Shown: one piece after another, positions 45,044 through 64,000 of the stretch
Position numbering within the stretch: position 1 is the stretch's first letter
How the letters are laid out: every line of letters begins with the position of its first letter
From: Chlorobiota bacterium
GTDB lineage: Bacteria > Bacteroidota > Ignavibacteria > OLB7
Length of the DNA: 64,000 nt
Direction: 5' to 3'
NCBI GenBank assembly: GCA_028287785.1
Contig: JAQBOZ010000019.1
Location: 1-64,000, forward strand
Program-made: the position numbers and the translations under genes
The notes under the pieces: generated by a model
Database searches by the model: none
What the model was told of the DNA's origin: nothing
Seen by the model: only the letters and a program-made list of their open reading frames with translations

Positions 45044-47836
45044 ATGCCCATGCCTCCTCTCCGTCGTCTCCTCGTATCAGTGATAGTCCTTCTGGCAGCA
45101 TCATCCATGTGCGGATGGGGACAACGGCGGGAGGATATACGGGTTTCTCCCATCGATGTCTCCACCTCGCGTGTGCCGGAACAGGGACGATTTCAATCGG
45201 CCGCAGCAATCAAGGGGACCACACTCGTGGCATGGGGAACATCCCGCCTGCTGCCCGACGACAGCATCGCATTCCCCATCCGCTACCAGCTATTCAACGG
45301 CAGCTTCCCCGCAACCACCGACCGACCACTGACAACCGACCCCGCCCGACCGTTTGGATATACCATCGTCATGCCGGTGGAGAACGCTTTTCTCGTTCTC
45401 TGGAATGACAATCGAAAAGATTCAGGCGGGATCTACATGCAGCGGGTTGCGGGAAATGGGAATTTCCTTGGAGGCGAAATCCGAATTGGGAAGGGAACAA
45501 TCATCCCGGATTCATCGGTCGGCATCTGGGGGCTGCCGAATCGCACGGGAGGCTCGCTGCTGATCTGGAGGGATGGAAGTGATACCAACCTTCATGGAAT
45601 AAGGGTTGATCGCGACGGACAGCCGAACGAGAACGAGCAGATAATTGCGAAAAATATGGATCGAATATTGACATTCGATTCCCTCCCCGGAACCTATATG
45701 CTGATGAACGGTCGCAACGGGGTTCTGGTCGATGATCGTGGGGATGTTGATTTACGAACAACGCGCATCGAAAATCCCAGCGCTTTTTATTTCGGCGGGG
45801 ACACATCGCTGACCGTAATTCAGGGGGATACGCTCCGATATTATCATTCCATATTCGACCCGATTCCATATAGAACCTTGACCGTACCGGCCATTGATTC
45901 GGGCGTTCCAGGCATGACGGCGGTTCAAAAAAAGAGCGACGGCACCATACAGGTCTTTTTCGGCAGGGTCAGCGTCACGGGAACGCAGATGAGCCTGGGA
46001 CAGGTCGTTGTCCGATTTTATCGTGTCGATATCTTTCCGAACGACAGCATCAGCGCGCCGGTTTCCGTGATCGATGACCGATGGAAAAACGGGAGCACCA
46101 TATATTCACTCGAATCCTATTCAATCTCAGCGTTTCAGAGAGCCTCGGGCCGGGAAGGATCAAGTGGCACCCATCTGTTCAAACTCGACTGGACAGCGGT
46201 GGGATATATACATGACCATCCGCAGCCGGAATCTCAATTTGCGACCTATTACTCCATCGGCAGGAATGGGGCAATCACCACGTCGGACTCCGCATTTATC
46301 AGCAACGGATATACGGCGCAGCAGAACGGATCGATAAAGCGGATCGATGATACCACCGCCAGCAGCGTAAGCATCACCATTGCGAAAAAAAACATCGTGC
46401 TTCATGCCACCTCGGCATTGCTGACCAATGCGGTTGCCCGGACAAACCCCGGCCTGCTCGTCAGCAATAATGCGTTGATCGCCACCTGGGAGGAGCCAGG
46501 CAGATCCTTTGATTGCCGACGCTGGCTACCGGCAACCGGCACGCCGGCGCAACGGATAAGCAGAGTGCATCTACCGGATATTCAGGAGCCCAATATATTC
46601 CAGATGCAATCGATCCGGAAAACTCTTTCCCACGAAGACTATCTGTATAACCGGCCCGGTATGAGCGGGATCATGTCGGAGCAGCGCATCGAGGATTACG
46701 GCGTTTATTACTACACCACGGCATCGTACGGATATGAGCAATTATCATGGGGGATGGTCTCATTTCTCATGGCGACCGACACCGGCTGGAATACGCCCAT
46801 ATCGCTTAGCGATACCACTATCTATCCTCCCCTTGCGGCATCACACTCCATTCAGGAAGCGTTCTGCGGATACGATCCAAATTCCAACGAAGTATGCATG
46901 CGCGTCTGGAGAAGTGTGGCGGATCGCTCCTCACCGCTGACCATTCTCAGCGCCGGTCCCAACAGCAACAACTGGCATGTCGACAACCTGGATACGATGT
47001 TGAAATATGGGCCGGCGCCCGTCCAGACCGATTATCGCCGGTTTATGATATATGGTGATACGGCCGGCAGAATATATGATGGCAATTCCCTCTTCGATCA
47101 AATCAGCTTTTCCACGATCCGCCCATCATTCTGCTTCAGAGCCCTTGGCTCACATTTCATACGATTATTCTGGCTCGACAGCATCTCAACCGATCTTCAG
47201 ATCGAATTATATGATTTCGACCATACGCTCCTGGCAAGCCGGGCCATTTCCCGCGCCCAGCGAAATCAATTCCCCCTGTTTATCCAGAACCCGCGGGATT
47301 TCTCCTGGGCACTCTACTGGAGCGCACAGGACGGCGTTCATATAACCCTGCTGGGGAATGATCTCCGCGTTATCATACCAGATACATTGATCAGCGCGGG
47401 CGGTTTGAAAACCGGGGTCTCCGCCGTATTTCGAGGGGATACGCTTTTTGCTGTCTGGGAGGATCATCGCAATGGGAAAGCCGATATTTATGGAAATTAT
47501 CTCCCCTTCCCACGGCGGTCGGCCTCGGTGAATGATCAGAGTTTTCCCGGCTCCGGAATATCAGGCGATAGCTCCCGGAACATATCGTTCTCCATGTATC
47601 CCAACCCCGCCCGCGCAATCATCAACATCGATATGATTGCGTCGATGAGCGATGACGCGGATATCGCCATCGTCAACACGCTCGGCCAGGTGATCCGCTC
47701 CGTCCATCGCGAGGCCGAGCCGGGCACGCGACATCGATTTACGATTGCGACGGGAGACATTCCCGCAGGCGCTTATTTCCTCCACTACCACATCGGGCTT
47801 GTCAGTGGGGCAATACCGCTGCAGATCCGACCTTGA
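45044..47836 (+). CDS. Large T9SS-sorted secreted protein
   Basis: A 930-residue protein with a signal peptide (RRLLVSVIVLLAASSMCGWG, Q). The body is beta-rich with repeats of the type 'VAWGTSRLLPDDS', 'FLVLWNDNRKDSGGIYMQRV', 'GGSLLIWRDGSDTNLHGI' and, near the end, 'LFAVWEDHRNGKADIYGNYL'. These WND/WED-R-x-G motifs resemble bladed-propeller sequences with an 'h-h-x-W-x-D-x-R' strand that I associate with sialidase-like and BNR-type propellers. The last 80 residues are a T9SS sorting domain (FSMYPNPARAIINIDM, then GDIPAGAYFLHYHIG). The gene is visibly lower in GC than its neighbours and uses more AT-ending codons, suggesting transfer or relaxed selection. Confidence 0.83.
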   Translation: MPMPPLRRLLVSVIVLLAASSMCGWGQRREDIRVSPIDVSTSRVPEQGRFQSAAAIKGTTLVAWGTSRLLPDDSIAFPIRYQLFNGSFPATTDRPLTTDPARPFGYTIVMPVENAFLVLWNDNRKDSGGIYMQRVAGNGNFLGGEIRIGKGTIIPDSSVGIWGLPNRTGGSLLIWRDGSDTNLHGIRVDRDGQPNENEQIIAKNMDRILTFDSLPGTYMLMNGRNGVLVDDRGDVDLRTTRIENPSAFYFGGDTSLTVIQGDTLRYYHSIFDPIPYRTLTVPAIDSGVPGMTAVQKKSDGTIQVFFGRVSVTGTQMSLGQVVVRFYRVDIFPNDSISAPVSVIDDRWKNGSTIYSLESYSISAFQRASGREGSSGTHLFKLDWTAVGYIHDHPQPESQFATYYSIGRNGAITTSDSAFISNGYTAQQNGSIKRIDDTTASSVSITIAKKNIVLHATSALLTNAVARTNPGLLVSNNALIATWEEPGRSFDCRRWLPATGTPAQRISRVHLPDIQEPNIFQMQSIRKTLSHEDYLYNRPGMSGIMSEQRIEDYGVYYYTTASYGYEQLSWGMVSFLMATDTGWNTPISLSDTTIYPPLAASHSIQEAFCGYDPNSNEVCMRVWRSVADRSSPLTILSAGPNSNNWHVDNLDTMLKYGPAPVQTDYRRFMIYGDTAGRIYDGNSLFDQISFSTIRPSFCFRALGSHFIRLFWLDSISTDLQIELYDFDHTLLASRAISRAQRNQFPLFIQNPRDFSWALYWSAQDGVHITLLGNDLRVIIPDTLISAGGLKTGVSAVFRGDTLFAVWEDHRNGKADIYGNYLPFPRRSASVNDQSFPGSGISGDSSRNISFSMYPNPARAIINIDMIASMSDDADIAIVNTLGQVIRSVHREAEPGTRHRFTIATGDIPAGAYFLHYHIGLVSGAIPLQIRP

Positions 47837-48237: not shown

Positions 48238-49947
48238 TCATTCGCCTGAATCGTCGGCAACGGTCTTCTTCCGCTCCCCGCGCAATTCGGTTATCACACG
48301 TTCCATCACGTGTTCCGCGCTCCCCCCTTCCTCCACATAGATAAATCGCCCCGCATCCCGGTAGAGATGGAGATAGCTGGCGATGATCTTGATCTCATCG
48401 ATCTCCTCGCGACGGCAGTGCGATGGCGCGGTGGCCCCGTCGAAATAATGGCGCTCCACCAGCTTCGCGAGCTTTGCCGCCGGCGGGCGCGTGCCGATCA
48501 CCACCTGGGCCGCCAGACGCCCGAACCGCACAAGGAAGATCTCCCGTTTCCTCTCCTCGGCCGCGGGAAGAACGATGATCACATTGTTCCGGTTGATCGA
48601 TTCGGCAATCCGCTCCTCGCGCCTGAAGATCTTCCGCAGCTCGTTGATACGGTTCCGCAGTTGCGCCGCCTCCTCGAACTCCAGCGCCTCCGCGTGGCCG
48701 GTCATCTTCCGCTCCAGCAGCGATATGATTCCGGTGTCGGCGCCGGAAAGAAAACCCCTGACGCGATCCACCTCCAGAGCGTAATCGCCGGCGCTCTGCA
48801 ACATCGCGCATGGCGCGCCGCAACGCTTGATCTGATAGTAGAAACAGGGGGCCAGGTTCTCATTCGGGATGATATCCCCGGCGCACTCGCGAAGGCCGAA
48901 TGACTGGTTGATGGTCTCGATCATCGCCTCCACCGCGTCCCGGTTCCGGAACGGGCCGAAATACTCGGCGCCGTCCGGCTCGATCTCCAGCGAAAAATCG
49001 ACGCGCGGATAGGCGTTGCCGGTGGTCAGCCGGAGGAATGCGTAGCGACGGTAACGCTTCTGCATGGTGTTGTATTTCGGCTGATGCTCCTTGATCAGCC
49101 GCGATTCCAGCAGCAGCGCGCCAAGCTCCGACCCGGTTTCCACCACCTCGATCTTCCTGACCCGCCCCACCATTTCGCGGATCTTGCTGGTGTGGATGGC
49201 CCCGTGACGGAAATAGCTACCCACCCTATCGCGAAGGCTCTTCGCCTTGCCGATATAGAGGACCTCACCACGCGCGGCGATCATCCTGTAAACCCCCGGC
49301 TTGGCCGGAAGAGCCGAGAGCACCGGCTCAAGCGCCTTGATATGTTTCGGCAGCTCCCGGAAGTTCGCCATCGTCTGGTACTGGATCGCAAGGAGATCCT
49401 CCACCGTCTCGCAATCGTGCTCCTCCTGAAGCAGCTCGATCATCTGAATCAGCGCCAGCGCGGTGGCACGGGCATCCCCCAGCGCGTGATGCCTCCCCTG
49501 CACCTTGATCCCGAGATGCGCCGTCAGATGCCCCAGCCCCCATCGCTTCTGCGCCGGCAGCAGCCTGCGCGCAAGCCGCGCCGTGCAGAGCTTCGCATGC
49601 CGCAACTCGTCGACGCCGTGGCGACGGAATGATGATTGAAGAAAGTTGTAGTCGAACGATACGTTGTGGGCAACGAAAATCGCGTCATCGGTGATCCACT
49701 CCCTGATCTGCGGAAACACCTCTCCTCCCTTCGGTGCCGCGAACACCATGGCGTTGGTGATCCCGGTCATCTTCTGAATCTCGTTCGGGATGAACTGCTC
49801 GGGATTCACCAGCATCCGCCGCTCGTCCACAATCTCGCCGCCGCGCACGTAGACGCACGCAACCTCGGTGATGCGGTTCTTGTCGGGGGAAAGCCCCGTG
49901 GTCTCTATATCGGTAACAACGAATGTAGCGTCGGTCAACAACGGCAT
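48238..49947 (-). CDS. DnaQ-like exonuclease fused to a Cho/UvrC GIY-YIG endonuclease
   Basis: Start at ATG 49947 gives 569 residues. Residues about 8-165 are a DEDDh exonuclease of the DNA polymerase III epsilon type: VVTDIETTGLS (Asp13, Glu15), FVAHNVSFDYNFLQSSFRRH, LGHLTAHLGI and HHALGDARATALAL (catalytic His and last Asp). Residues about 215-300 are a GIY-YIG nuclease: LPAKPGVYRMIAARGEVLYI, GKAKSLRDRVGSYF, TGSELGALLLESRLIKEHQP. The UvrC-like middle part follows, with CFYYQIKRCGAPC and a UvrB-binding-like helix (ALEFEEAAQLRNRINELRKI). No RNase-H-like or HhH domain is visible at the end. Family knowledge: this DnaQ-Cho fusion is found in several phyla and may take part in DNA repair; a UvrC-like 3' incision followed by trimming is an inference. 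Confidence 0.9.
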   Translation of the reverse strand: MPLLTDATFVVTDIETTGLSPDKNRITEVACVYVRGGEIVDERRMLVNPEQFIPNEIQKMTGITNAMVFAAPKGGEVFPQIREWITDDAIFVAHNVSFDYNFLQSSFRRHGVDELRHAKLCTARLARRLLPAQKRWGLGHLTAHLGIKVQGRHHALGDARATALALIQMIELLQEEHDCETVEDLLAIQYQTMANFRELPKHIKALEPVLSALPAKPGVYRMIAARGEVLYIGKAKSLRDRVGSYFRHGAIHTSKIREMVGRVRKIEVVETGSELGALLLESRLIKEHQPKYNTMQKRYRRYAFLRLTTGNAYPRVDFSLEIEPDGAEYFGPFRNRDAVEAMIETINQSFGLRECAGDIIPNENLAPCFYYQIKRCGAPCAMLQSAGDYALEVDRVRGFLSGADTGIISLLERKMTGHAEALEFEEAAQLRNRINELRKIFRREERIAESINRNNVIIVLPAAEERKREIFLVRFGRLAAQVVIGTRPPAAKLAKLVERHYFDGATAPSHCRREEIDEIKIIASYLHLYRDAGRFIYVEEGGSAEHVMERVITELRGERKKTVADDSGE

Positions 49948-50271
49948 TGTGCTCGGCCTGTAGTAATCATGCTGGCGCCCCCGGCCTCCAAGATACGTAC
50001 GACGTTCATCTTCCCGATGCAATGTCCCCGGTCGCACCATCGTTCCCGCCCTCCGTCCGGGTCATCTGGATGGGAAAATGGAGCGATTGCACCGCCTGGG
50101 ATTGCTTCTGTTTCCTCAGGAGTCGATATCTTTGGGCTTCTACCAACATGCCCTGAACGGGCCTCGATTCCTGGGATGCACGCCCGGTCCATCAGGAACC
50201 TTCGGGGCAACTCACGCAGATCGCATTCGGCACTACTTGAATTCAACCCATTCACTGGAGTTAAACATCCT
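49948..50271. other. Divergent intergenic region
   Basis: 324 bases between the DnaQ-Cho gene (minus) and a lipoprotein gene (plus), holding divergent promoters. Short frames here have no recognisable product. A GGAG precedes the lipoprotein start. Confidence 0.5.
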
Positions 50272-51570: not shown

Positions 51571-51846
51571 ACGCAGCCGATGACGTTGTTCAACTTCCCA
51601 ACGCGAGCTGTTCAACAACGATCAGATGCAAGGCGGCCGAGCCGGCGTGAATGAGGCGTCCTCCCGGACGCCACCGTGAGCGAACGGTGAAGGCCAATGA
51701 CGCAGATGACGTTGTTCAATTTCCCAAGACGCGGGCTGTTCAACAACGATCAGATGCAAGGCGGCCGAGCCGGCGTGAATGGGGCGTCCTCCCGGACGCC
51801 GCAGTGAGCGACGGTGAAGGCCAACGCCGCAGATGACGTTGTTCAA
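51571..51846. repeat. 126-bp tandem direct repeat (2.1 copies)
   Basis: The unit, marked by gatgacgttgttcaa at 51579, 51705 and 51832 (spacing 126 and 127), is repeated almost exactly twice and begins a third time just before comF. Each copy contains ttcaacaacgatcagatgca, ggcggccgagccggcgtgaa and the hairpin gcgtcc-tccc-ggacgc. A gttgttcaa/ttcaacaac inverted pair lies within each unit. It is non-coding in my view (stops interrupt in most frames), and ends 20 bases upstream of the comF start. Confidence 0.88.
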
Positions 51847-51867
51847 CAGTGTGCCGGGAATATCACC

Positions 51868-52578
51868 ATGAAGCGCTATCTCCACCGTATCGGCTCCGAT
51901 CTCTTCAACCTGATCGCGCCATCGCTCTGCCCGTCGTGCGATGCGCCGCTGACCCCAGCCGAACGCTTCTACTGCGACGCGTGCCGCTCGTCGCTGGAGC
52001 CGGCGCCATTCCCCAGGGATATCTTCTCCGAGGTCGCGGGAAATTTTCCGGGTGATGAGCTTGCGCTGGAAGCCGTCGGGTCGCTCTACCGGTTCGATCC
52101 CGACAGCCCCGTGCAGAGGCTGATTCATGCGCTCAAATACCACGGCTGCTACAGGCTGGGAGTGGAGATGGGACGGGAGCTTGCGACGGGGCTGCGGATG
52201 TTCCGGGCGTTTGCGGGAATCGATCTGGTGGTTCCGGTCCCGCTGCATCGAGCGCGGGAGCGGGAACGGGGATATAATCAGGCGGAGGCGATCGCCAGAG
52301 GGCTGGCCGGGGCCATGCCGAATGTGAGGATGGAACGGGCGCTCGCCCGGCGACGGCATACCATCAGCCAGACGACGCTGGGAGCAGGGGCGCGGCGGGC
52401 CAACGTCATCAATCTCTTCAGGGCAACGGGCGTGGATGTGAAGGGGAGAAGGGTGCTCCTCTGCGATGATGTCTGCACAACCGGCGCAACGCTCAACGCC
52501 TGCGCCGAGCAGCTTCTGGTTGTCGGCGCCGCATCCGTCCTGGCCGCCACCGTCGCGAAGGATGGGACGCCACTGTAA
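51868..52578 (+). CDS. ComF-family amidophosphoribosyltransferase-like protein
   Basis: Start at ATG 51868 gives 236 residues. A zinc-ribbon-like N-terminus (LCPSCDAPLTPAERFYCDAC, four Cys) is followed by LIHALKYHGCYRLGVEMG and VPVPLHRARERERGYNQAEA, the ComF/GntX signature. The PRPP-binding loop is VLLCDDVCTTGATLNACAEQ. ComF links to DNA uptake in naturally competent bacteria; in the window comEC is also present, far away. Reading upstream in frame passes through the tandem repeat, but no start codon there is convincing. Confidence 0.9.
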   Translation: MKRYLHRIGSDLFNLIAPSLCPSCDAPLTPAERFYCDACRSSLEPAPFPRDIFSEVAGNFPGDELALEAVGSLYRFDPDSPVQRLIHALKYHGCYRLGVEMGRELATGLRMFRAFAGIDLVVPVPLHRARERERGYNQAEAIARGLAGAMPNVRMERALARRRHTISQTTLGAGARRANVINLFRATGVDVKGRRVLLCDDVCTTGATLNACAEQLLVVGAASVLAATVAKDGTPL

Positions 52579-52626: not shown

Positions 52627-55317
52627 TTATCGGATCAGCAGAAGCATCCTCGATTCAACCGATCCTCCTCTCTGCAACCGGCAGCAGTAGGCCCCGGCGG
52701 GAAGATCCCCCGCGTTCCATGTGACCTCGTGGCTTCCCTCCTCGAACCTTCCCGATGTCGCGATCCCCACTTCGCGCCCTTCCATGTCGAACACCCGTAT
52801 GGTGACGTCGCACGCCGACGGCAGATCGAAGCGGATGACCGTCGATCCGGTGAACGGGTTTGGCGATGGCCCCCGGAGCGATATCGCGGCGGTCGCGGTC
52901 GGGGCTCTCTCCACCGAGAGCGGGGCCAGATCCCATCGACCGAAATAGTACGATGGCTTCAACCCCGCCAGCCCGAACTTCCCCGAAGCATAAAGGCCGC
53001 CGGTCGTGATGCCGATCGACACGATCTCATCGTCGGTGCCGCTCCCGAGCGGAGCCCAGCGCCTGCCGTCCCACCGGGCGATATTCGTTGCGCTGTCGCC
53101 GCCGGCCAGCATGAAATGGCCCGCCGCGTAGATAATATCGTCCCCGCCGAACGCGATCGAGTTGATATAGGGCAGGATGTTCTTCCCCCCCACGCCGGCT
53201 CCCAGCCCATGCCAGGCCGCCCCATCCCACCGGGCCAGATAGCCGATGCTGTCCCCTCCCACCGCCGTGAAGAAGCCGCCGATATAGAGATCATTCCCCT
53301 TGAAGGTGACGGCATTCACCTGGTCGTTTGCTCCCAGCCCCACATCCTTCCAGTGCGCGCCATCCCACCGGGCAATCCTGCCGGATGATGTGGTATCGAT
53401 GCCGCTGAACGTCCCCCCGATATAGGGGACGCCGGAGGGGTTTACCGCGATCGCCAGGACCGCCCCGTCAACGCCGGCATCCATGGAGTGCCATTCCCCC
53501 TTTGCCATATCCCAGCGCGCGATTCCCGATACGGTCTGCCTTGAACGGCCCACCTGATCGATCTGCCCCCCCACGTACAGATCGTTCCCGTAGGCCGCCA
53601 GCCCGTAGACGATCGGGGTAATCCCCTTGATCACCGAGTAGGCGCCGGAATCGAGCGGGAACCAGGTATCGGAAAGGGAGTTCCACCGCGCCACGTTCTT
53701 TGCCCTGACCGTGCCGACCATGCTGAACTGGCCCCCCACGTACAGATCGTCGCCGCTGAAGGCCATCGCGTTGACGATGTTGGCAATCCCCTCGACCACC
53801 AGCGTCCAGCGGGTCCCATCCCACTTCACGATCGTCGAACGCCCCGTGGCGCTGGCGCGATCGTACCCGCCGGCAACATAGACTTCATTGCCGTGTATCG
53901 TCATCGCCGTCACCGGCCCCACCACCCCCGCGCCGAAGGGGAACCAGCGTTGCGTGGGGATATCCCATCGCGCCATCCTTGCCCTGATTCTCTTATCAAC
54001 GGTGTGGAACACCCCGCCCACATAGATCGAATTGCCCGACCTCACCATCACGTTGGAATAGCCATCAAACCCCGGCGGCGTGTAGTTCGGCGATTGAGAG
54101 TAGTTGAGCGGCAGCGGCTGGAAATAGTTGTCGACCTTCCCGCCGTGCAGCACGCCCCAGAAGCCGGGATACCTCGGAGGTGGTGCTCCGCCGGTGCTGT
54201 ATGCCAGGTAGCCGCGGAACGTCCCGGTCATGTAGACCTCGAAATCCGTCAACTCGATATATCGAACCTGTGCCTCCACCCAGAGCCCGGCATAGGGAGT
54301 CCATGCGCTCCCGTTCCATGTGGCGATATTGATGGTATCGGCGCTCCCCTTCAGACCGAACGCCCCCCCGGCGTACACGTTCTTCGCATCCACCGCGATG
54401 GCGTTGACCGAGCCGTAGACGCCGCCGCCAAGCGGGTTCCAGCTCTTCGTGTCATCGTTCCAGCGGGTGATGCTCCGGCTTGCCACGGTCCCCGCATGGA
54501 GAAACGCGCCGCCAACGTAGACATCCCTGCCGCGCGTCGCGATTGCCAGCACATCGCCATCCACGCCGTTCGCCGCTCCGGTTCCAAGCGCGCTCCAGAC
54601 CCCGTCCCTGGTGCGCCGGGCGATATTGTTGGCCGCGATCCCACCGATCGTTTCAAAGCTCCCACCGAAATAGGTGTAGTTGCTGTCCACCCTGATCACC
54701 GATACCACCGCGTATCCCGAACTCGTTGCCCCGCCGATCGGGGACCATTGCCCGGTCGATGGGTTCCACTGAGCCAGATTCTCCGCCCCCACCCCCCCGG
54801 CGTGATGAAACTCCCCCCCCGCGTACAGCCGGTCGCCCTCGATGCCGATCGCGTAAACCGGGCCATCCACCCCGTCGCCGAGCGGAGCCCAGAAGGCGCC
54901 GTTCCAGCGGGCGATATGCCGGGCCTTGACCTCGTTGAGCCGCGTGAACGATCCGCCCACGTAGATGTCATCGCCGATGACGGCCATCGAGTAGATATCG
55001 CCATCCATGATGAAATCACCGAACCGGTCATCCCATCTGGCATCATCGGGAACGGAGGAAAGGAGCGATGCCCCGGCCGATGATTTCTCCGGCACGAACC
55101 GCGGCGCCGCGCCGGGCCGGCTGGCAAGCATCCAGCCTGAAGGATCGATCGCCGACGATGCCATCCCCTTCTTCAGCGTTCCGTCCGGGTTGAGCAGTTC
55201 ACCCAGCGGGACGCGCCGGGCTTCCTCCTGCGCCTGGAGCGGGGCGGCCCCAAGCAGAGCCGCGCCCATCAGAGCCATCAGAAGAAGCATCAGCCCATAT
55301 CGGTTGCGGCTGGTCAT
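52627..55317 (-). CDS. Giant T9SS propeller-repeat protein, fourth in cassette
   Basis: Start at ATG 55317 chosen for its signal peptide (MTSRNRYGLMLLLMALMGAA, then LLGAAPLQAQ); ATG 55350 is an alternative. 896 residues. An N-terminal segment (VPLGELLNPDGTLKKGMASS, then IDPSGWMLASR and WDDRFGDFIMDGDIYSMAVI) is shared with its neighbours. About 14 repeats of roughly 45-60 residues follow, each of the form 'ARWDGxxWxxLGxGVxGxVxAI - VxGNDLYVGGxFxxxG'. The last 80 residues are a T9SS domain (SPNPFTGSTVIRFDLPSACD, then GSHEVTWNAGDLPAGAYCCR, ending RMLLLIR). The repeats probably form beta-propellers exposed outside the cell. Last gene of the operon, 68 bases after the previous stop. Confidence 0.88.
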   Translation of the reverse strand: MTSRNRYGLMLLLMALMGAALLGAAPLQAQEEARRVPLGELLNPDGTLKKGMASSAIDPSGWMLASRPGAAPRFVPEKSSAGASLLSSVPDDARWDDRFGDFIMDGDIYSMAVIGDDIYVGGSFTRLNEVKARHIARWNGAFWAPLGDGVDGPVYAIGIEGDRLYAGGEFHHAGGVGAENLAQWNPSTGQWSPIGGATSSGYAVVSVIRVDSNYTYFGGSFETIGGIAANNIARRTRDGVWSALGTGAANGVDGDVLAIATRGRDVYVGGAFLHAGTVASRSITRWNDDTKSWNPLGGGVYGSVNAIAVDAKNVYAGGAFGLKGSADTINIATWNGSAWTPYAGLWVEAQVRYIELTDFEVYMTGTFRGYLAYSTGGAPPPRYPGFWGVLHGGKVDNYFQPLPLNYSQSPNYTPPGFDGYSNVMVRSGNSIYVGGVFHTVDKRIRARMARWDIPTQRWFPFGAGVVGPVTAMTIHGNEVYVAGGYDRASATGRSTIVKWDGTRWTLVVEGIANIVNAMAFSGDDLYVGGQFSMVGTVRAKNVARWNSLSDTWFPLDSGAYSVIKGITPIVYGLAAYGNDLYVGGQIDQVGRSRQTVSGIARWDMAKGEWHSMDAGVDGAVLAIAVNPSGVPYIGGTFSGIDTTSSGRIARWDGAHWKDVGLGANDQVNAVTFKGNDLYIGGFFTAVGGDSIGYLARWDGAAWHGLGAGVGGKNILPYINSIAFGGDDIIYAAGHFMLAGGDSATNIARWDGRRWAPLGSGTDDEIVSIGITTGGLYASGKFGLAGLKPSYYFGRWDLAPLSVERAPTATAAISLRGPSPNPFTGSTVIRFDLPSACDVTIRVFDMEGREVGIATSGRFEEGSHEVTWNAGDLPAGAYCCRLQRGGSVESRMLLLIR

Positions 55318-55385
55318 CGTTTCTCTATGATCGTTCATCGATTCGTTCATTGTTCGGATAATCGTCGGTTGCGGAAATGGCCCCG

Positions 55386-58300
55386 TTACCGGGAGCCGAG
55401 CACGATGATCTTCTGCGTTTCAGTTGCGCCGCCGCTTCGCAGCCGGCAGTAGTAGACGCCGCTCGGATACCGCGAAGAGTTCCATCGCACAGTGTGTTCC
55501 CCCGCCTCGCGCCTCCCCGAGAGGAGCGTCTCCAGCGCCTCCCCCCGGCTGTCGAACATCGTCAGCGTAACATCGGCGGGATGCCGAAGCTGGAAGGTGA
55601 TGCTTGCCGATGCCGATGCGGGGTTGGGCGATCCCGGTCCCAGCGCGATCCCGTCGTCCGCCGCCGCAGCCGGCGCCGGCTGGAAGACCGACGCGATTCC
55701 CTGCCGTGTCCAGTGCGCCAGGTAAAACGCGGAGCGCCCGCCGCAGTTGGTGAAATCCCCCCCCGCGAACAGCTCGTTCCCCCGCGCGGCCATCGCGAAG
55801 ACCCTGCCGTCGCGATAATCGGTGAACGCCCCGCGACCCAGGTTTCTCCACTGTCTGCCATCCCATCGGGCCATATACTGGGTGATCAGATTGCCGATGA
55901 AGAGGAATGATCCGCCGACATAGACATCGCTGTCGCCAATGGCGATCGAGTAGACCGAGCCGCTGTAGACGCCATCGTAGAACGTCCCCAGATTGCTCCA
56001 GCGCGTCCCGTCCCAGTGCCCGAACCGGCGCAGCAGAGTGTTCCCCGCCGCCTCGAAATCGCCACCGGCGTAGAGATCGCCCTTGGGGCCGACCGCGATG
56101 GTGTAGACCGCGTTGTTCAATCCTCCGCCCACATCGTACCATGCGGACCCATCCCAGCGGGCGATGTTCTGCGCCCCCACGCCGCCGATCCCCGGGAATA
56201 TGCCGGCCACGTAGATCCCGCCGTTGTATGTGGCGATCGAGTTCACATAGGTGAAGTAGCTGGCCCCTTCCACCTCACCGATGCCGGACCAGGTGCCGGC
56301 CGCGATATTCCAACGCGCAAGGCGCCGCGCCCGCAGTTGCCCCGCCAGTGAAAAGGCGCCGCCCACATAGAGATCGTTCCCGGAAAGAGAGAGCGCATAG
56401 ACATACGGCAGCGCCCCGGAGACGCCGCCACCGACCGCCGACCAGTCCGTCCCATCCCAGTAGCCGATGCCGTTGAGCTGAAGGCTGTCCACGCGGCTGA
56501 ACTCCCCGCCGACGTAGACCCCGCCGCGATCGTCGATGGCGATCGCGCGGATGATGCCGTCCATCACCCCACGCACGGGAAGCCAGCGCTCGCCATTCCA
56601 GTGGGCGATGCCGGCCGTCCTCATCCCCCCCACGACGCTGAAGTAGCCGGCCGCGTAGAGATCCTTTCCCCGCACCGCCATCGTCAGCACCTTGCCGTAG
56701 AGGCCATTCTGCGAATCGGCCCCAAGCGATGACCAGTCGCCGCCATGCCCGCCGATTGCCACGGGAACCACCGAGGCAACGTGACGCGCGAGCAATCCCC
56801 CAGTGATGTTGAAATCGCCACCGACGTAGAGTGTCTTCCCGGCGAATGTCAGGGCCCGCGCGAACCCATTCCCGCCGTTCGTGGAATCGATCCCGATCGG
56901 CTCCCAGCCGGCCGCCGAGACGCGGGCGACATGGCCGACCGATTTCCCATTGACTTTCGTGAACTCGCCGCCAACGTAGATGCCGTTCCCCGACTGATCG
57001 GTCGTGATGGAGTAGCCGGGCGCGCCCGGCTGCGCGCCCGCCGGATCGGGCGAATCCCACCGGCTCCCGTTCCACCGGGCCAGATAGCGAAGAGCGGCAT
57101 CCCCGGCCCGCGTAAACTCGCCTCCCGCGTAGAGCGCGCCATGCGCGTGGAGCGTGGTGACGATTCCGTTCACGCCGTTCAGCGTCCCCCCGATCAGCGG
57201 ATTCCATCGCGTCCCATCCCAGCGGGCGATGTTGTTGGCCGGGATCGTATCGGCAAGCTGAAAGTTGCCCCCCACGTAGATATCACTCCCCGATCCCGCG
57301 ATCGCCAGCACGTAATGCGAGCTGGTCTTGCTCCCCACGCCCCCCGCCAGCGCGCTCCATGCCGATGTTCCGGGGCTCCATCGGGCGATGCCGTTCGCCA
57401 CCACGCTTCCGGCGGTGGTAAAACTCCCGCCGACGTAGAGATCCGGGCCGATCGCGGCAAGCGCATAGACAAACGGGTTGGCCCCACCCACCCCCCCGGC
57501 GGGCTCCGACCATGCGGCGCCGTCCCATTTCGCCAGGCTGTGCGCCGCGACGCCGGACGCGCTCTGGAAATATCCACCGGCATAAAGATCGCTTCCGATC
57601 ACCGCCAGCGAACGGACGAACGAGCCGGCGCTGTCGATTCCGCTCCCCAGCGGATACCAGCGGCTGGCGATGCTGTTCCAGCGAGCAACCCGCGGCGAAC
57701 GGACGCCGCCGACCACCGTGAAATCGCCGCCGACGTAGAGGTCATCACCCGACACCGCAACGGCGTACACCGGGCCGTCGGTGCCGTTGGAGCTTCCGGC
57801 GGCGACCGTAGTATCGGCGACAAGCTGGTGCCACGCCTCATCCTTCCACGACGCGATATGGTGCGATGACACATTCCCGGCCACCGTAAAATGTCCTCCG
57901 GCATAGACCTCTCCATCATCCGCCACCGCGATCGCGAACACAAAGGGGAGCGTCTCGGGGCCACGGTTCAGATCGTGCTCATCAACCGGCGGCGACGCCA
58001 GCCGGCCGTTCCCGACCGTCCAGTCCCCCACCCACTGCGTCATGCCGTTGATGCTCAGCCCCATCCCCGCGCTCATCGCCGACCACGACCCGCCATTCCA
58101 CCGGGCGATGCAGTTGGCCGTCAGGCCGGATGTGGTGGAGAACCTTCCACCGACATAGAGATGATTCCTGAAGGGGGTCATCGCGTAGACGATGCCGTCG
58201 AACCCGCCTGGGATCTCGTGCCATGCCGTGCCGTCCCATCGCGCCAGATAGGGGGCGGCCACCCCGCCCGCCGTCCTGAAGTTCCCCCCGGCATGAAGCT

Positions 58301-59384
58301 CGCCGTTGAAGAACGAGACGGCACGCACCGTGTCATCGGCCCCGGTGCCGAGCGGATACCAGCGCGATTCGCCGATGCTCCAGCGGGCGATATTGTTGAC
58401 AGCGAGCGGGCCGATCTTCTTGAACGCCCCCCCCACGTACAGATCATCGCCGTTGATGGCGATGCCGTAGATGCTGCCGGTGGTATCGGTTCCAAGCGCA
58501 TTCCATCTGCTCCCGTCGAAGCGGGCGATATGCCTGATCTTCCGATCCTTGTACACATAATCGAAATCGCCGGCGGCGTAGACATTGGAACCGCTGACCG
58601 CGATGGCGTAGATATCCCCCCCGCGCACAATCGGCAGAAACCCGCGCTGGGCAAACAGCACTTTCTGGAGCCCGGTGTCCAGCGCGCTCCAGGTCTGCGA
58701 GAAGGTGTTCCACCGGGCGATGCCGTTCACCGTAAGCTCCCCCGCGGTTTCGAAGATGCCGCCGACGTAGAGATCGTGCCCGGATACCGCCAGCGCGTGC
58801 ACGCCCCCCCCGGTGCCCCCCCCAAGCGGATACCACCGGCGGGAACGTCGGTTCCACCGCGCCACGTTGTACGCCGCGATATTCCCTATCAGATTGAACC
58901 GGCCACCGATGTAGATATCGTCATCGATGACGGCCACGGAATAGACGATCCCGGCCGCCCCCGGAAAGCCGAACAGATCGTCCCATCCATCATCCCCCTC
59001 GATCGGCTTGATGAAGTTGCGCGTGGTGTCTCTGGTGGAATCGGCGGTGCTGTCGGCGGAGAGGAGTCTGCGGAACCGTGGCGACCCGTCGGGCGCGGTG
59101 GAAAGGCCCCAGCCGCGGGCATCGAGGCTGCCGCTGAAGCCGGAGCGCAGGTTCAGCGTTCCATCGGGATTCAGATAGCGCTCGATTGCCGGAGTGCCCG
59201 GGATGGAATCGGCCCGCGCGGTATCCCCCTGCGCCCGCAACGTGGCGGATGCGGCAAAAAGCAATGCCAGCAGCAGAAGGGAGCCACGAAGCCGGGCGAT
59301 GGCCGGTGGCGTCAGATATGGTATAAGTGATCGTAGCATTAGCTCTGATTGGTTCGGGCTCTCCCCGATATCATTATGAGTCAT
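55386..59384 (-). CDS. Giant T9SS propeller-repeat protein, third in cassette
   Basis: Start set at ATG 59384, which overlaps the stop of the upstream paralogue (ATGA); ATG 59339 gives a shorter, cleaner signal peptide (SLLLLALLFAASATLRAQ in both). 1332 residues with the start used. The shared N-terminal segment includes IERYLNPDGTLNLRSGFSGS and GWDDLFGFPGAAGIVYSVAV. About 21 repeats follow (motifs YVGGIFETAGE, YAGGEFTRAGD, YVGGNFQLADT and others), the longest array of the four. The C-terminal T9SS domain (SPNPASASASITFQLRHPAD to IVLGSR) has a Cys in YYCRLRSGG. The protein has no other recognisable domain. Confidence 0.88.
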   Translation of the reverse strand: MTHNDIGESPNQSELMLRSLIPYLTPPAIARLRGSLLLLALLFAASATLRAQGDTARADSIPGTPAIERYLNPDGTLNLRSGFSGSLDARGWGLSTAPDGSPRFRRLLSADSTADSTRDTTRNFIKPIEGDDGWDDLFGFPGAAGIVYSVAVIDDDIYIGGRFNLIGNIAAYNVARWNRRSRRWYPLGGGTGGGVHALAVSGHDLYVGGIFETAGELTVNGIARWNTFSQTWSALDTGLQKVLFAQRGFLPIVRGGDIYAIAVSGSNVYAAGDFDYVYKDRKIRHIARFDGSRWNALGTDTTGSIYGIAINGDDLYVGGAFKKIGPLAVNNIARWSIGESRWYPLGTGADDTVRAVSFFNGELHAGGNFRTAGGVAAPYLARWDGTAWHEIPGGFDGIVYAMTPFRNHLYVGGRFSTTSGLTANCIARWNGGSWSAMSAGMGLSINGMTQWVGDWTVGNGRLASPPVDEHDLNRGPETLPFVFAIAVADDGEVYAGGHFTVAGNVSSHHIASWKDEAWHQLVADTTVAAGSSNGTDGPVYAVAVSGDDLYVGGDFTVVGGVRSPRVARWNSIASRWYPLGSGIDSAGSFVRSLAVIGSDLYAGGYFQSASGVAAHSLAKWDGAAWSEPAGGVGGANPFVYALAAIGPDLYVGGSFTTAGSVVANGIARWSPGTSAWSALAGGVGSKTSSHYVLAIAGSGSDIYVGGNFQLADTIPANNIARWDGTRWNPLIGGTLNGVNGIVTTLHAHGALYAGGEFTRAGDAALRYLARWNGSRWDSPDPAGAQPGAPGYSITTDQSGNGIYVGGEFTKVNGKSVGHVARVSAAGWEPIGIDSTNGGNGFARALTFAGKTLYVGGDFNITGGLLARHVASVVPVAIGGHGGDWSSLGADSQNGLYGKVLTMAVRGKDLYAAGYFSVVGGMRTAGIAHWNGERWLPVRGVMDGIIRAIAIDDRGGVYVGGEFSRVDSLQLNGIGYWDGTDWSAVGGGVSGALPYVYALSLSGNDLYVGGAFSLAGQLRARRLARWNIAAGTWSGIGEVEGASYFTYVNSIATYNGGIYVAGIFPGIGGVGAQNIARWDGSAWYDVGGGLNNAVYTIAVGPKGDLYAGGDFEAAGNTLLRRFGHWDGTRWSNLGTFYDGVYSGSVYSIAIGDSDVYVGGSFLFIGNLITQYMARWDGRQWRNLGRGAFTDYRDGRVFAMAARGNELFAGGDFTNCGGRSAFYLAHWTRQGIASVFQPAPAAAADDGIALGPGSPNPASASASITFQLRHPADVTLTMFDSRGEALETLLSGRREAGEHTVRWNSSRYPSGVYYCRLRSGGATETQKIIVLGSR

Positions 59385-62182
59385 CGTTCCAGGAGAAGCA
59401 TTGTCGCCCTGGTGCCGTCGGCGGTTCGAAGCCGGCAATAATATACTCCCGCCGGATATCCATCACCGTTCCATTCGGCACGATGGTCTCCGCGTTCCAT
59501 CGTTGCCGAAAGGAGCTTCGCCACCTCCCGGCCACGCATGTCATAAATTCGGAGATCGGCCTGGCCGGCGCGCGCCAGCGTGAAGTCTATCGATGTGGTC
59601 CCCGTGAAGGGGTTTGGCGAGCCTGCAAGCCCCCCTGCGGCGGCATGAGGCAGGTCCGTGCGAACGTCGAGCTCGGGAGCCAGCCACCGGCCAAAATAGA
59701 TCGATGTCTTCGCTCCCGCCTCAACGAATCTTCCGCCGGCGTAGAGGCCGCCGTCGCCAACCGCGATCGCGAAAATCTGGTTGTCGGCGCCGCTCCCCAT
59801 CGGATGCCAGCGTGAGCCGTCCCAGCGGGCGATATTGCTGGCGCTGTCGGCCCCGGCCACTGTGAAGAATCCCCCGGCATAGAGCGTGCTTCCACTCATC
59901 GCGAGCGAGTTGATCATCGGGAAGGAGAAGCCCCCGAGGCCATCGCCAAGCCTGTTCCAGCGCGTCCCGTCCCATTGCGCGATATGCCCCACGGTATCGC
60001 GGCCGATGGTCTTGAAATCGCCGCCAACATAGAGCCTCTCACCATCGGCGAGCAGCGATACCACGTCGTCGTTGATCCCCCCGTTTCCGAGCCTTCCCCA
60101 GTGATCGCCGTCCCATCGCGCCAGATACCTGACGCTGGTGTCCGGCGCCGAGAAATGCCCGCCGATATAGACGGTGCCGGACGGGGTCACCGCCACGGCA
60201 TTGATATTTCCGTACACGCCCCTGTCCATCGCCGACCACGTCCCGGCGCCGATGCTCCAGTGCGCGACGTTGTTCACGGCGATCCGCGCCGCGCCCGCCT
60301 GATCGAACACCCCGCCGGCATAGAGATCATCGCCGTGGATGGCGATCGACGCAACCGATGCGTGCGCGCTGTCGGTTGGACGGTAGTTGTGGAGCAGGCC
60401 GGAGTCGAGCGCCGATATCTGGCCGCTGCTCAGCCGAAGCCGGGCGATATTGACCGCCGGCATCGAGTCCAGGGTGAAGAACTGGCCGCCGAAATAGAGG
60501 TCATCCCCGTCCAGGGCCATCGCGTTGATTGTCCCCTTGATCCCCCGCTTGATCTGTGTCAGCCGCACGCCGTCCCACTTCAGAATGGTGGAGGCATCCT
60601 GCCCGTTCGGCCGCTTGTAGACGCCCGCGATCAATGTCTCCCCCGGACGAGTCGCGATGGCATGGACCGGCCCCGTCACCTTCACCCCCAGCGCATTCCA
60701 CTCACCGCGGTCCACGTGGTTCTGAATATTGTTGAAGAGCCTGGGGAGATCGTACCGGGCGATCCTCCCCCGAATTGCCCCGCCGGCCACCCTGTAGCTT
60801 CCGCCGACGTAGAGCGATGTTCCGCTCATGAACATCGCATCGATATAACCGTCGGTCCCGGAATGTTCATTGAAATCGAGCTGATGCCAGACCGGGCTCC
60901 AGACCGATCCCCACCCCACCGTGTCACGATCCCAGTAGCCCACATAGTTGGCGACCGTGCGCCCCCCGGTCAGCCCCGGCGAGATAACGCGGAACGCGCC
61001 GGAGGCAAAGATGAAATCGCGATAGACGGTGATCGCGTGGACGTTCCCCTCGGCCGATGATGTGCCCCCCGGATAGGCAAGCGTCGTCAGCGCGCCGGTC
61101 GCCTCGATGTAGTACCCGATGTTGGCCGCCGCGTCGCTCCCGATCCTGTCGAACCTGCCGCCGATATAAATCCGTTGCGGCCCCACGCCGATCGCATTCA
61201 CATACCCCCGCACTCCGGCGCCGATCGCGCTCCAGGCCCTCGTGGTCATGTCCCAGCGCGCGAGATTGGAGGCCGGATCACCCGCGACCGAGCGGAACGC
61301 GCCGCCCACATAGACGTTGGTATTTTTTATCGCGATCGCCATCACATCCCCATCGGTCCCGTTCCCCTCCGTTCCGGGAAGCGCGGCCCAGCTGTTGGTC
61401 ACCATGCTGAACCGGGCGATGTTGTTCGCGGTGATGCCGCCGGCGGTGGTAAAACTCCCGCCGACGTAGAGATCGGTCCCGTTGACGGTGATCGCTGAAA
61501 CGTACGAGTAGCCATCGGCGGCAAGGCCGCTCCCGAGCGGCAGCCAGCGACCGGCGGTGAGGCTCCAGACGGCGATATTGCTGGCACCGATCCCCCCGGC
61601 AAGAGTGAATTGTCCCCCCACGTAGAGGTTGTCCCCCACCACCGCCAGCGCGTTGACGTTGCCGTTCACGCCATCCCCCAGCGGAAGCCAGGAACTGCCG
61701 TTCCAGCGCGCCACGCGGTGCGCCGTCTGCTTGTCCAGCTCATCGAACCCGCCGCCGATAAAGACATCCTCGCCGTTCGCGGCAATCGCATAGACATCCC
61801 CGTCCATATGAAAATTTCCAAACCCGTCATCCCAGTACTCATCCCCCGGCACCGATGCAAGGCTGTAGGAATCCCCCCCGCCGGAAGCGATCGGATAGAA
61901 ATGAGGCACGCCGGAGAGATCGGTTTCCATCCTCCAGCCGCGCGTGTCGACCGCGCCGTCGTAGCCGAGCGATGTGTTGAACGTCCCGTCCGGCTTGAGA
62001 AGCTGGCCGATGGGACGCCCGGCATCGGAGCTTACCGGCTGCGCGGAGAGCGTGATGCCACGCAGCAGCAGAGCCACCGCAAACAGCACATTCACGGCAA
62101 CCGCTATCCCGCGCGGGGCCAATGGATGGCCCGTGCAACGCCGGGCGATCGACTTCATGGTGATCATTGGAAATCGGAACAT
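59381..62182 (-). CDS. Giant T9SS propeller-repeat protein, second in cassette
   Basis: Start at ATG 62182, sharing bases with the stop of the preceding paralogue (TGATG) and with GGAGGG eight bases upstream. 933 residues. The signal-type hydrophobic segment is GIAVAVNVLFAVALLLRGIT at about 25-44, preceded by a basic n-region. The shared N-terminal segment is IGQLLKPDGTFNTSLGYDGA, DTRGWRMETD and YWDDGFGNFHMDGDVYAIAA. About 14 repeats follow (YVGGQFTLAGG, YVGGSFTTAGG, YVGGDFKTIGR). The T9SS domain starts SPNPFTGTTSIDFTLARAGQ and ends MLLLER, again with YYCRLR. Surface or released protein of unknown function. Confidence 0.9.
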   Translation of the reverse strand: MFRFPMITMKSIARRCTGHPLAPRGIAVAVNVLFAVALLLRGITLSAQPVSSDAGRPIGQLLKPDGTFNTSLGYDGAVDTRGWRMETDLSGVPHFYPIASGGGDSYSLASVPGDEYWDDGFGNFHMDGDVYAIAANGEDVFIGGGFDELDKQTAHRVARWNGSSWLPLGDGVNGNVNALAVVGDNLYVGGQFTLAGGIGASNIAVWSLTAGRWLPLGSGLAADGYSYVSAITVNGTDLYVGGSFTTAGGITANNIARFSMVTNSWAALPGTEGNGTDGDVMAIAIKNTNVYVGGAFRSVAGDPASNLARWDMTTRAWSAIGAGVRGYVNAIGVGPQRIYIGGRFDRIGSDAAANIGYYIEATGALTTLAYPGGTSSAEGNVHAITVYRDFIFASGAFRVISPGLTGGRTVANYVGYWDRDTVGWGSVWSPVWHQLDFNEHSGTDGYIDAMFMSGTSLYVGGSYRVAGGAIRGRIARYDLPRLFNNIQNHVDRGEWNALGVKVTGPVHAIATRPGETLIAGVYKRPNGQDASTILKWDGVRLTQIKRGIKGTINAMALDGDDLYFGGQFFTLDSMPAVNIARLRLSSGQISALDSGLLHNYRPTDSAHASVASIAIHGDDLYAGGVFDQAGAARIAVNNVAHWSIGAGTWSAMDRGVYGNINAVAVTPSGTVYIGGHFSAPDTSVRYLARWDGDHWGRLGNGGINDDVVSLLADGERLYVGGDFKTIGRDTVGHIAQWDGTRWNRLGDGLGGFSFPMINSLAMSGSTLYAGGFFTVAGADSASNIARWDGSRWHPMGSGADNQIFAIAVGDGGLYAGGRFVEAGAKTSIYFGRWLAPELDVRTDLPHAAAGGLAGSPNPFTGTTSIDFTLARAGQADLRIYDMRGREVAKLLSATMERGDHRAEWNGDGYPAGVYYCRLRTADGTRATMLLLER

Positions 62183-64000
62183 CAGCGTCCCTCCATCACA
62201 ATCATCGTCAGTGTCTCCATCGTTCCGCCGCTCCTGAGTTGGTAATAGTAGACGCCATCCGGAATATCGCCGGGCTCCCATCTGACCTGATGCTCGCCCG
62301 CCCCTTCCATCCCATCCAGCAGCGTGGCAACCACCCGGCCGCGGGCATCGAACACCCGGAGGCTTGTTGCGCCCTCCCGTTCCAGCGTGAAGCTGATGGT
62401 GGTGAACGCGCCGCATGGGTTGGGGCTGTTTCCGCCGAGCATGGCCGAACCGGATGCCGGAGGAACGCGGTCGCGCGATTCCCTGACACCGGAGGCCGCG
62501 CTCTTGGTCCAATGCCCGAAATAACAGGAAGATCTTCTTCCGATGCTGGTGAAGTTCCCGCCGGCATACAGCTCCATCTCATCCGCCGCCAGCGCGTAGA
62601 TCTCACCGGCAGTGTAGTCGAGCGAGGGGGCCGCGCCGATATTCCGCCACGTGGTCCCATCCCAGCGGATCAGCCGCTCCGATCGCACATCGGCGAGCGT
62701 CGAGAAGTTCCCGCCGATGTAGAGATCCTCCCTGCCGACCGCGATGGCATAGATCGCGCCGCCGCTGAAGACGCCGAAGCCGCCGGACCATCGCGTCCCG
62801 TCCCACCGGGCAAGGTTTCTGATGGTGGTATCCGCCGTGGCCTGAAAATCACCGCCGACGTAGACCTCGCCGTTTCTGCCGGCCGCCACCGCGAAGATGC
62901 TGTTGTTGAATCCCGCCCCCATCGCCCGCCACGCCGTCCCGTCCCAGCGGATGATATTCTCCGAGGAGACGCCCCCCGCGGCCGGGAAATATCCCGCCAC
63001 GTAGAGATCGGCCCCATAGGCGGCGAGCGACGTAACGTAGGTGAACTGCGGCCCGCCGCCGACGCCGCCGGCCATCGAGTTCCATGATCCCGAGGAGATA
63101 TTCCATCGGGCGATATGGTTCGACCGGACGCCCCCCGCCGTGGAGAAGCCGCCGCCGGCATAGAGGTCATCCCCGATGATCGCCACGGCGTAGGCATACG
63201 GAACGCCGCCGCCAAGCCCTTCCCTCAGCGCCGACCATCGGGCGCCGTCCCAGTGGGCGATGCCGTTGACGGCAAGATCGCCGACCTTCGTGAACTCGCC
63301 CCCGACATAGGCGCCACCGTTCGTGTCGACCGCGATCGAGCGAACCACGCCGTTGAACTCCTCCCCCACCGGAAGCCATTGCTCCCCATCCCAGTGTGCG
63401 ATGTTCCCCGTGCGAAGCCCGCCGACCACCGTAAACGCGCCGCCGATATAGATATCCCTCCCACGCATCCCGATGGCATATACCTGGCCGTACACGCCGT
63501 TGCGCGAATCGCTTCCAAGCGATGACCAGACATTGTTTCCATATGATGCGATAAACCGGGAGGATCCCCCACCGGCGGTTGTGAAGTCCCCGCCGGCATA
63601 CAGAGCATTCCCCCCGGCCGCCAGAGCGCGGATGAACCCATTGGCGCCGTTGAGCTCCCCGGCTCCCAGCGTGCTCCACCTGCTTCCGTCCCAGCGGGCG
63701 ATGTGCGTCATCGACGCATCGTTCAAGCTGTTCCTCGTGAACTCACCGCCGATGAAGACATCACTTCCCATCGCCACGATGCCGTGAACGGGGCCGTTCA
63801 GCGCGATGGCCGGCCCCCTCCAGCCCCCGCCCGCCGACCAGATGGCGAGGTTGCGCGATGCCCTGCCGCCGGCACTGGAGAACTCTCCGCCGGCCCAGAG
63901 ATCGCCCCGGCTGTCGAACGCCAGCGCGCTCACAAGGCCGTCCATGCCGTTGCCGCCGGTGGAATCCGTCAGCGCGCTCCACCCGCCCGATTCGCTCCAG
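62182..64000 (-). CDS. Giant T9SS propeller-repeat protein, first in cassette (N-terminus outside window)
   Basis: The frame is open at base 64000, reading WSESGGWSALTDSTGGNGMD at the edge, so only the C-terminal 605 or so residues are in the window. Ten repeats are seen here (WAGGEFSSAGG, FIGGEFTRNSL, YAGGDFTTAGG, YIGGAFTVVGG and others), with WD-x-x-R/A-W between them. The end is a T9SS domain: SPNPCGAFTTISFTLEREGA, GEHQVRWEPGDIPDGVYYYQ and a terminus MEGR. Its stop overlaps the next gene's start by one base (TGATG). Confidence 0.9.
   Translation of the reverse strand, partial: WSESGGWSALTDSTGGNGMDGLVSALAFDSRGDLWAGGEFSSAGGRASRNLAIWSAGGGWRGPAIALNGPVHGIVAMGSDVFIGGEFTRNSLNDASMTHIARWDGSRWSTLGAGELNGANGFIRALAAGGNALYAGGDFTTAGGGSSRFIASYGNNVWSSLGSDSRNGVYGQVYAIGMRGRDIYIGGAFTVVGGLRTGNIAHWDGEQWLPVGEEFNGVVRSIAVDTNGGAYVGGEFTKVGDLAVNGIAHWDGARWSALREGLGGGVPYAYAVAIIGDDLYAGGGFSTAGGVRSNHIARWNISSGSWNSMAGGVGGGPQFTYVTSLAAYGADLYVAGYFPAAGGVSSENIIRWDGTAWRAMGAGFNNSIFAVAAGRNGEVYVGGDFQATADTTIRNLARWDGTRWSGGFGVFSGGAIYAIAVGREDLYIGGNFSTLADVRSERLIRWDGTTWRNIGAAPSLDYTAGEIYALAADEMELYAGGNFTSIGRRSSCYFGHWTKSAASGVRESRDRVPPASGSAMLGGNSPNPCGAFTTISFTLEREGATSLRVFDARGRVVATLLDGMEGAGEHQVRWEPGDIPDGVYYYQLRSGGTMETLTMIVMEGR

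Follow-up and report, generated by a model that had tools for sequence, protein, structure and literature searches.

A four-gene array of long and short multi-propeller proteins with type IX secretion tails in a Chlorobiota bacterium

Here we describe four adjacent paralogous genes, A to D, of a Chlorobiota bacterium, which encode predicted surface proteins of two or three seven-bladed propellers each. The alternating order of the long (L) and short (S) types, L-S-L-S, is best read, from sequence comparison, as a single duplication of a two-gene unit, L then S. The parts of the system are already known, namely Rax2/Kelch-like rings, cargo of the type IX secretion system (T9SS) and chains of several rings, as in WRAP or PorZ; unusual are the triple ring, the putative four-gene operon and the duplicated ordered pair. 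The array offers a clean case of propeller proteins growing by whole rings (7, 14, 21 blades), and likewise of a paralogous gene pair that was retained in fixed order and then duplicated as a unit.

Array organization

The window, i.e., the whole stretch of 64,000 nucleotides that was analysed, is the first 64 kb of the 168-kb contig C10, so that gene D, which is cut by the window edge with about 1819 bases inside, could be completed from the contig. Four neighbouring minus-strand open reading frames (ORFs) follow each other in the transcription order D, C, B, A, and the array is complete in this genome. The features are as follows, with P1 to P3 denoting the successive propellers of a protein.

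C10:62182-66060 (62182..64000 in the window), minus strand: gene D (L-type), first transcribed, 1292 aa
about 64554 to 63484 (P2) and about 63483-62461 (P3), with P1 beyond the window edge, minus strand: propellers of D, 21 blades
62209..62424, minus strand: T9SS type A C-terminal sorting domain of D, profile match
62182..62184, minus strand: D/C junction TGATG, the TGA of D and the ATG of C sharing one base
59381..62182, minus strand: gene C (S-type), 933 aa
about 61795-60668 (P1) and about 60667-59642 (P2), minus strand: propellers of C, 14 blades
59411-59617, minus strand: T9SS tail of C
59381..59384, minus strand: C/B junction ATGA, stop-start overlap of four bases
55386..59384, minus strand: gene B (L-type), 1332 aa
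about 58946-57771 (P1), 57770-56691 (P2) and 56690-55665 (P3), minus strand: propellers of B, 21 blades
55401-55628, minus strand: T9SS tail of B
55318..55385, minus strand: B/A intergenic gap, 68 nt
52627..55317, minus strand: gene A (S-type), 896 aa
about 54996-53914 (P1) and 53913-52882 (P2), minus strand: propellers of A, 14 blades
52660-52863, minus strand: T9SS tail of A
51814..52578, plus strand: comF-like phosphoribosyltransferase gene, convergent downstream flank

The gene sizes and the close linkage are those of the original prediction, which had described four adjacent minus-strand genes for proteins of 896 to about 1330 residues, joined by TGATG and ATGA overlaps and a gap of at most 70 bases. 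A Shine-Dalgarno-like sequence, GGAGGG, lies upstream of the D/C junction, and the B/A gap shrinks to 35 nt if gene A uses the upstream ATG at 55350. The prediction that the four proteins are made together holds as far as the tight spacing is compatible with one operon, but no minus-strand sigma-70 promoter was recognised before D, where the lone promoter-like match faces the nnr gene, and no terminator was recognised after A. Rfam gave no match to a structured RNA in the window. Several long ORFs, up to 479 aa, lie opposite the array (window 52729-63525, plus strand); given the G+C content of 65% these are most likely shadow frames and not genes.

Domain plan and secretion

All four proteins share a common plan of signal peptide, short conserved N-terminal segment, blades and type A T9SS sorting domain. 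Read by eye, the signal peptides end in VSAQ (D), LSAQ (C), LRAQ (B) and LQAQ (A), and such AQ-type ends match the Q-rule of Bacteroidetes (PMC5837995). The N-terminal segment, L-x-P-D-G-T ... D-x-x-G-W ... W-D-D-x-F-G, originally noticed as shared, is invariant in 4/4 proteins. A PF18962/TIGR04183 sorting domain, likewise foreseen, closes each of the four chains, with TIGR04183 scores of 24.2-32.3 bits, in every case above the cut-off of 23. A-D thus combine the two marks of T9SS type A cargo, a signal peptide and a C-terminal TIGR04183 domain above cut-off. The T9SS carries proteins with such a tail across the outer membrane, after which they are as a rule attached to lipopolysaccharide at the surface or set free. 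The genome encodes about 150 T9SS tails of this type and the T9SS translocon gene SprA. Secretion of A-D is well supported by these sequence features, and would take place via the T9SS.

The Rax2 family PF12768 matches A (E = 4e-29), B (2e-38), C (4e-28) and D (7e-47), the complete proteins scoring 99 to 160.4 bits against a cut-off of 28.8, and all 16 Rax2 matches of the genome fall within these four genes. Besides the propeller and sorting-tail matches, no other domains were found in A-D with Pfam and NCBIfam.

Fold and predicted structure

The AlphaFold model of A shows four strands per blade (mean pLDDT 82); the relative placing of its rings is not trusted because the pTM is 0.61. The three-ring part of B was modelled with a pLDDT of 74 and a pTM of 0.48, so that the inter-propeller geometry is not confident in either model. 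The best Foldseek matches of A were the tandem double seven-bladed propellers BT4663 and BT4673, and those of B were the multi-propeller proteins megalin, BT4663 and, lower down, PorZ, all with low TM-scores. The closest solved relatives by sequence profile in the PDB are Kelch domains. By sequence and AlphaFold model, the blades fall into the Kelch/Rax2-like class. Blade counts of 14, 21, 14 and 21 in A, B, C and D, together with blades of four strands each in the AlphaFold model of A, agree with seven-bladed propellers, ring closure being drawn from heptad statistics and not from coordinates. The propeller fold, claimed originally from the repeat pattern, is well supported by the Rax2/Kelch profile matches, the predicted four-stranded blades and the Foldseek propeller matches.

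Blade counts and growth by whole rings

Blades were counted with a profile hidden Markov model (HMM) built from the blades themselves, which is 42 residues long with the consensus VYAIAVDGGDLYVGGSFTTAGGVSANNIARWDGSTWSALGSG. The earlier repeat numbers of 14, 21, 14 and at least 10 for A to D were recovered, the last becoming 21 with D completed, and in the array order D-C-B-A the counts run 21-14-21-14, i.e., three or two seven-bladed propellers per protein. One degenerate blade in A (residues ~354-400) scores about 0 bits.

A census of 63 proteins was drawn from sister genera, other families of the class, one Ignavibacteria genome, Chloroflexota and two Flavobacterium genomes; incomplete frames with <6 blades were left out, and a degenerate blade was placed by position in the first gene of locus L066 and in A. 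Fourteen blades were found in 47 proteins, seven in 7, 21 in 2 (B and D only) and 12 or 13 in 7, the last group probably consisting mostly of proteins in which one degenerate blade was overlooked (weak or overlapping match, or gap). Multiples of seven thus occur in 56/63 homologues where one in seven is expected, with p about 1e-39, a value that overstates independence because the census proteins are related. It follows that the units gained or lost were whole seven-bladed rings. Propellers within one protein share 27-37% identity, and per-position blade identity is mostly far under 60%.

Independent gain and loss of repeats, by which the original prediction had explained the differing numbers, is ruled out by the heptad counts and by the blade-by-blade orthology of B with D and of A with C; the counts move in sevens, and the 21-14-21-14 series comes from a duplicated long-short pair.

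Paralogy and duplication of the pair

That A-D are paralogues was borne out by pairwise identities of 50% for B/D, 44% for A/C and 35-36% for all cross-pairs. In a ring-by-ring tree the first propeller of B groups with the first of D, the second with the second and the third with the third, and the rings of A pair with those of C in the same manner (96-100 SH-aLRT each). These sister relations, with the order long-short-long-short, indicate that one ancestral L-S pair was duplicated. P1 and P2 of B and D found no supported counterpart in the propeller tree, and among the genomes compared the third ring of the L-type occurs only in the window genome.

Unrelated singletons throughout the related genomes, which the original prediction had listed as an outcome against itself, were not what was found: arrays of two or three genes occur in the sister genera. 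G002, G003 and G004 hold three-gene arrays and further pairs, with orthologous L-then-S neighbours. The S-type clade (A, C, array gene 3 and pair gene 2) is supported at 95/94 for the first ring and 83/91 for the last ring, and at 97 in an enlarged quick tree. The L-type clade (B, D and array gene 2) is supported at 96/96 in the last-propeller tree, and the grouping of array gene 2 with B and D has no support in the first-propeller tree. The L-then-S order thus appears to predate the split of the window genus from G002, G003 and G004. The pairing is not strict, since at two sister-family loci (L064 and L065) the S-type gene is preceded by a gene that is not clearly L-type.

Recent gene conversion among the paralogues was considered and rejected: the longest shared DNA is 35 bases (B/C), the other pairs share 15-19 bases and the sister genes have no long tract. 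At one locus of G002 (L063:8300-13903) array genes 2 and 3 share a reading frame and are divided by a single stop codon (935 and 932 aa).

Genomic setting and distribution

Bounded by a divergent nnr gene upstream (start at 66428 of C10) and the convergent comF-like gene downstream, the array comprises four members and no more. In G003 and G002 (L084, L088) the comF and nnr homologues adjoin on one strand with no array between them, and the arrays of G002-G004 sit elsewhere. Most likely, therefore, the 13.4-kb block, which splits the comF-nnr neighbourhood of the window genome, came to its present site by movement or insertion. Its location between comF and nnr is new. Genome G001, of the same genus, yielded no comparable array, and its nnr has other neighbours; the array is accordingly dispensable. 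A foreign origin by composition is ruled out by the GC3 of the array, 78-80%, which equals that of the housekeeping neighbours.

Throughout the class, proteins with two Rax2/Kelch-like propellers are widespread, and many of them carry T9SS tails. Two or three propeller genes stand side by side at L131, L132, L139 and L150 in other families (genomes G068, G111 and G070), where they apparently arose by separate duplications; the notion that propeller arrays are confined to one family is thereby ruled out. The term undescribed system, proposed originally for the cassette, is too strong in view of these widespread proteins and of the adjacent pairs in other families. In two loci of other families of the class (L133:1212-5990 and L132:2143-6027), double Rax2-like propellers are joined in one chain with Ig-like repeats of the ASH/HYDIN type and a T9SS tail, and these are likely head-stalk-anchor surface proteins.

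Relation to known systems

A-D likewise possess the blade signature of Rax2 (PF12768) and Kelch, a GG doublet with a conserved Trp. Fungal Rax2 is a membrane cortical-marker protein, whereas A-D come from a bacterial genome, carry a C-terminal T9SS tail and consist of two or three complete propellers. The signal peptide and sorting domain are shared with T9SS type A cargo in general, from which A-D differ as four propeller paralogues in one array. The sensor domains BT4663 and BT4673 of hybrid two-component systems resemble A in having two serial seven-bladed propellers, at TM-scores of 0.2-0.3. Those sensors are periplasmic and include transmembrane and kinase parts; a search for sensor, transmembrane and kinase parts in A-D found none, and A-D have T9SS tails instead. 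PorZ of Porphyromonas gingivalis has tandem propellers and a T9SS C-terminal domain on the surface (PMC5121618), as predicted for A-D, but there is no family-level match, and A-D are four paralogues, two of them with three propellers. WRAP proteins are recently amplified WD40 propellers whose 14 blades form two 7-bladed rings (PMC9218822), and in them, as in A-D, the blades of a single chain number a multiple of seven. The blades of WRAP, however, are almost identical to each other, and a median blade identity >60% would be expected of propellers amplified as recently; the propellers within one protein of A-D share 27-37%, which shows that their amplification is old. Among the titles listed in searches of an open-access library, none dealt with such propeller proteins in T9SS organisms.

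Proposed function

A-D are probably sticky or ligand-binding cell-surface proteins, and we regard it as fairly likely that they are co-expressed, T9SS-exported binding or adhesion proteins working as L-S pairs. The locus would form one operon of two tandem copies of the ancestral unit, each with its L-type gene ahead of its S-type gene, so that all four proteins would be made together. Export would proceed through the inner membrane via Sec and through the outer membrane via the type IX system, which recognises the C-terminal domain; the proteins would then be anchored at the surface or released. The propeller faces may bind an extracellular ligand (polysaccharide, matrix or a protein of another cell), with several propellers per chain adding avidity and the diverged second pair widening the range of ligands; L and S of one unit would most likely act together.

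Two observations lean towards ligand binding by the rings. One is the head-stalk-anchor plan of the related double propellers, which is adhesin-like. The other concerns blade positions 16, 23, 24 and 27, which lie where the second strand ends, in the loop after it and where the third strand begins: they are kept between matching blades of the paralogues but vary among blades (z 4.6-6.4). This conservation may hint at a specific binding surface; it is a hint and not proof, because shared ancestry alone yields some such excess. Only the conserved gene order suggests the partnership of L and S. A multi-component assembly, as the original prediction had it, would be compatible with this order, which is no proof of partnership. 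We put forward tentatively that the pair is an obligate two-protein, T9SS-exported surface complex of a triple- and a double-propeller protein, a new class of paired adhesin or receptor; if so, the duplication gave two complexes with different specificity. An L-S partnership among T9SS cargo is testable, in a poorly studied bacterial group with few surface proteins of known roles.

A-D might instead be stand-alone surface binders, independent tandem duplicates whose adjacency stems from local duplication in a lineage rich in T9SS cargo. Double-propeller genes that stand alone are common in the class, the pair of G111 (L139) shares a clade with the single genes of its family, as in ordinary local duplication, and G001 lives without the array, all of which speaks for this account. 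It is doubtful all the same: the L and S types split before the sister genera did and the L-then-S order is kept in G002, G003 and G004, which dates the L-S adjacency further back than a simple recent duplication would.

The large, regular and repetitive chains, with no other domain and a very regular heptad architecture, would also suit a structural surface matrix or coat whose propellers pack into a sheet or filament and bind no ligand. We consider this improbable, as there are only four copies, which are considerably diverged, and as the conserved positions that are particular to each blade, near one edge, point to specific binding.

It is very improbable that A-D help the sortase as PorZ-like accessory proteins in the attachment machinery of the T9SS. 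PorZ (5m11) is among the Foldseek matches of B (E 2.3e-10) and is itself a propeller-bearing T9SS surface component (PMC5121618, PMC8545088); however, no PorZ-named model appears among the Pfam/NCBIfam matches up to E = 1, the fold match is common to many unrelated propellers, and G001 has SprA yet no array. Secreted enzymes, e.g., polysaccharide hydrolases or lyases on tandem propellers, are the least probable of all: xyloglucanases of the GH74 type, with tandem seven-bladed propellers, are in the Foldseek list of B, but neither Pfam nor NCBIfam gives an enzyme family match, and the columns conserved family-wide are structural Gly, Phe, Trp and Ala, with no invariant acidic residue.

Further genes of the window

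Two genes near the array deserve mention. The first (window 45044-47836, plus strand) encodes a T9SS cargo protein of 930 aa without other Pfam domain. The second (window 48238-50040, minus strand) encodes a fusion protein of 600 aa in which a DnaQ-like exonuclease is combined with a UvrC-like GIY-YIG nuclease and with a UVR motif.
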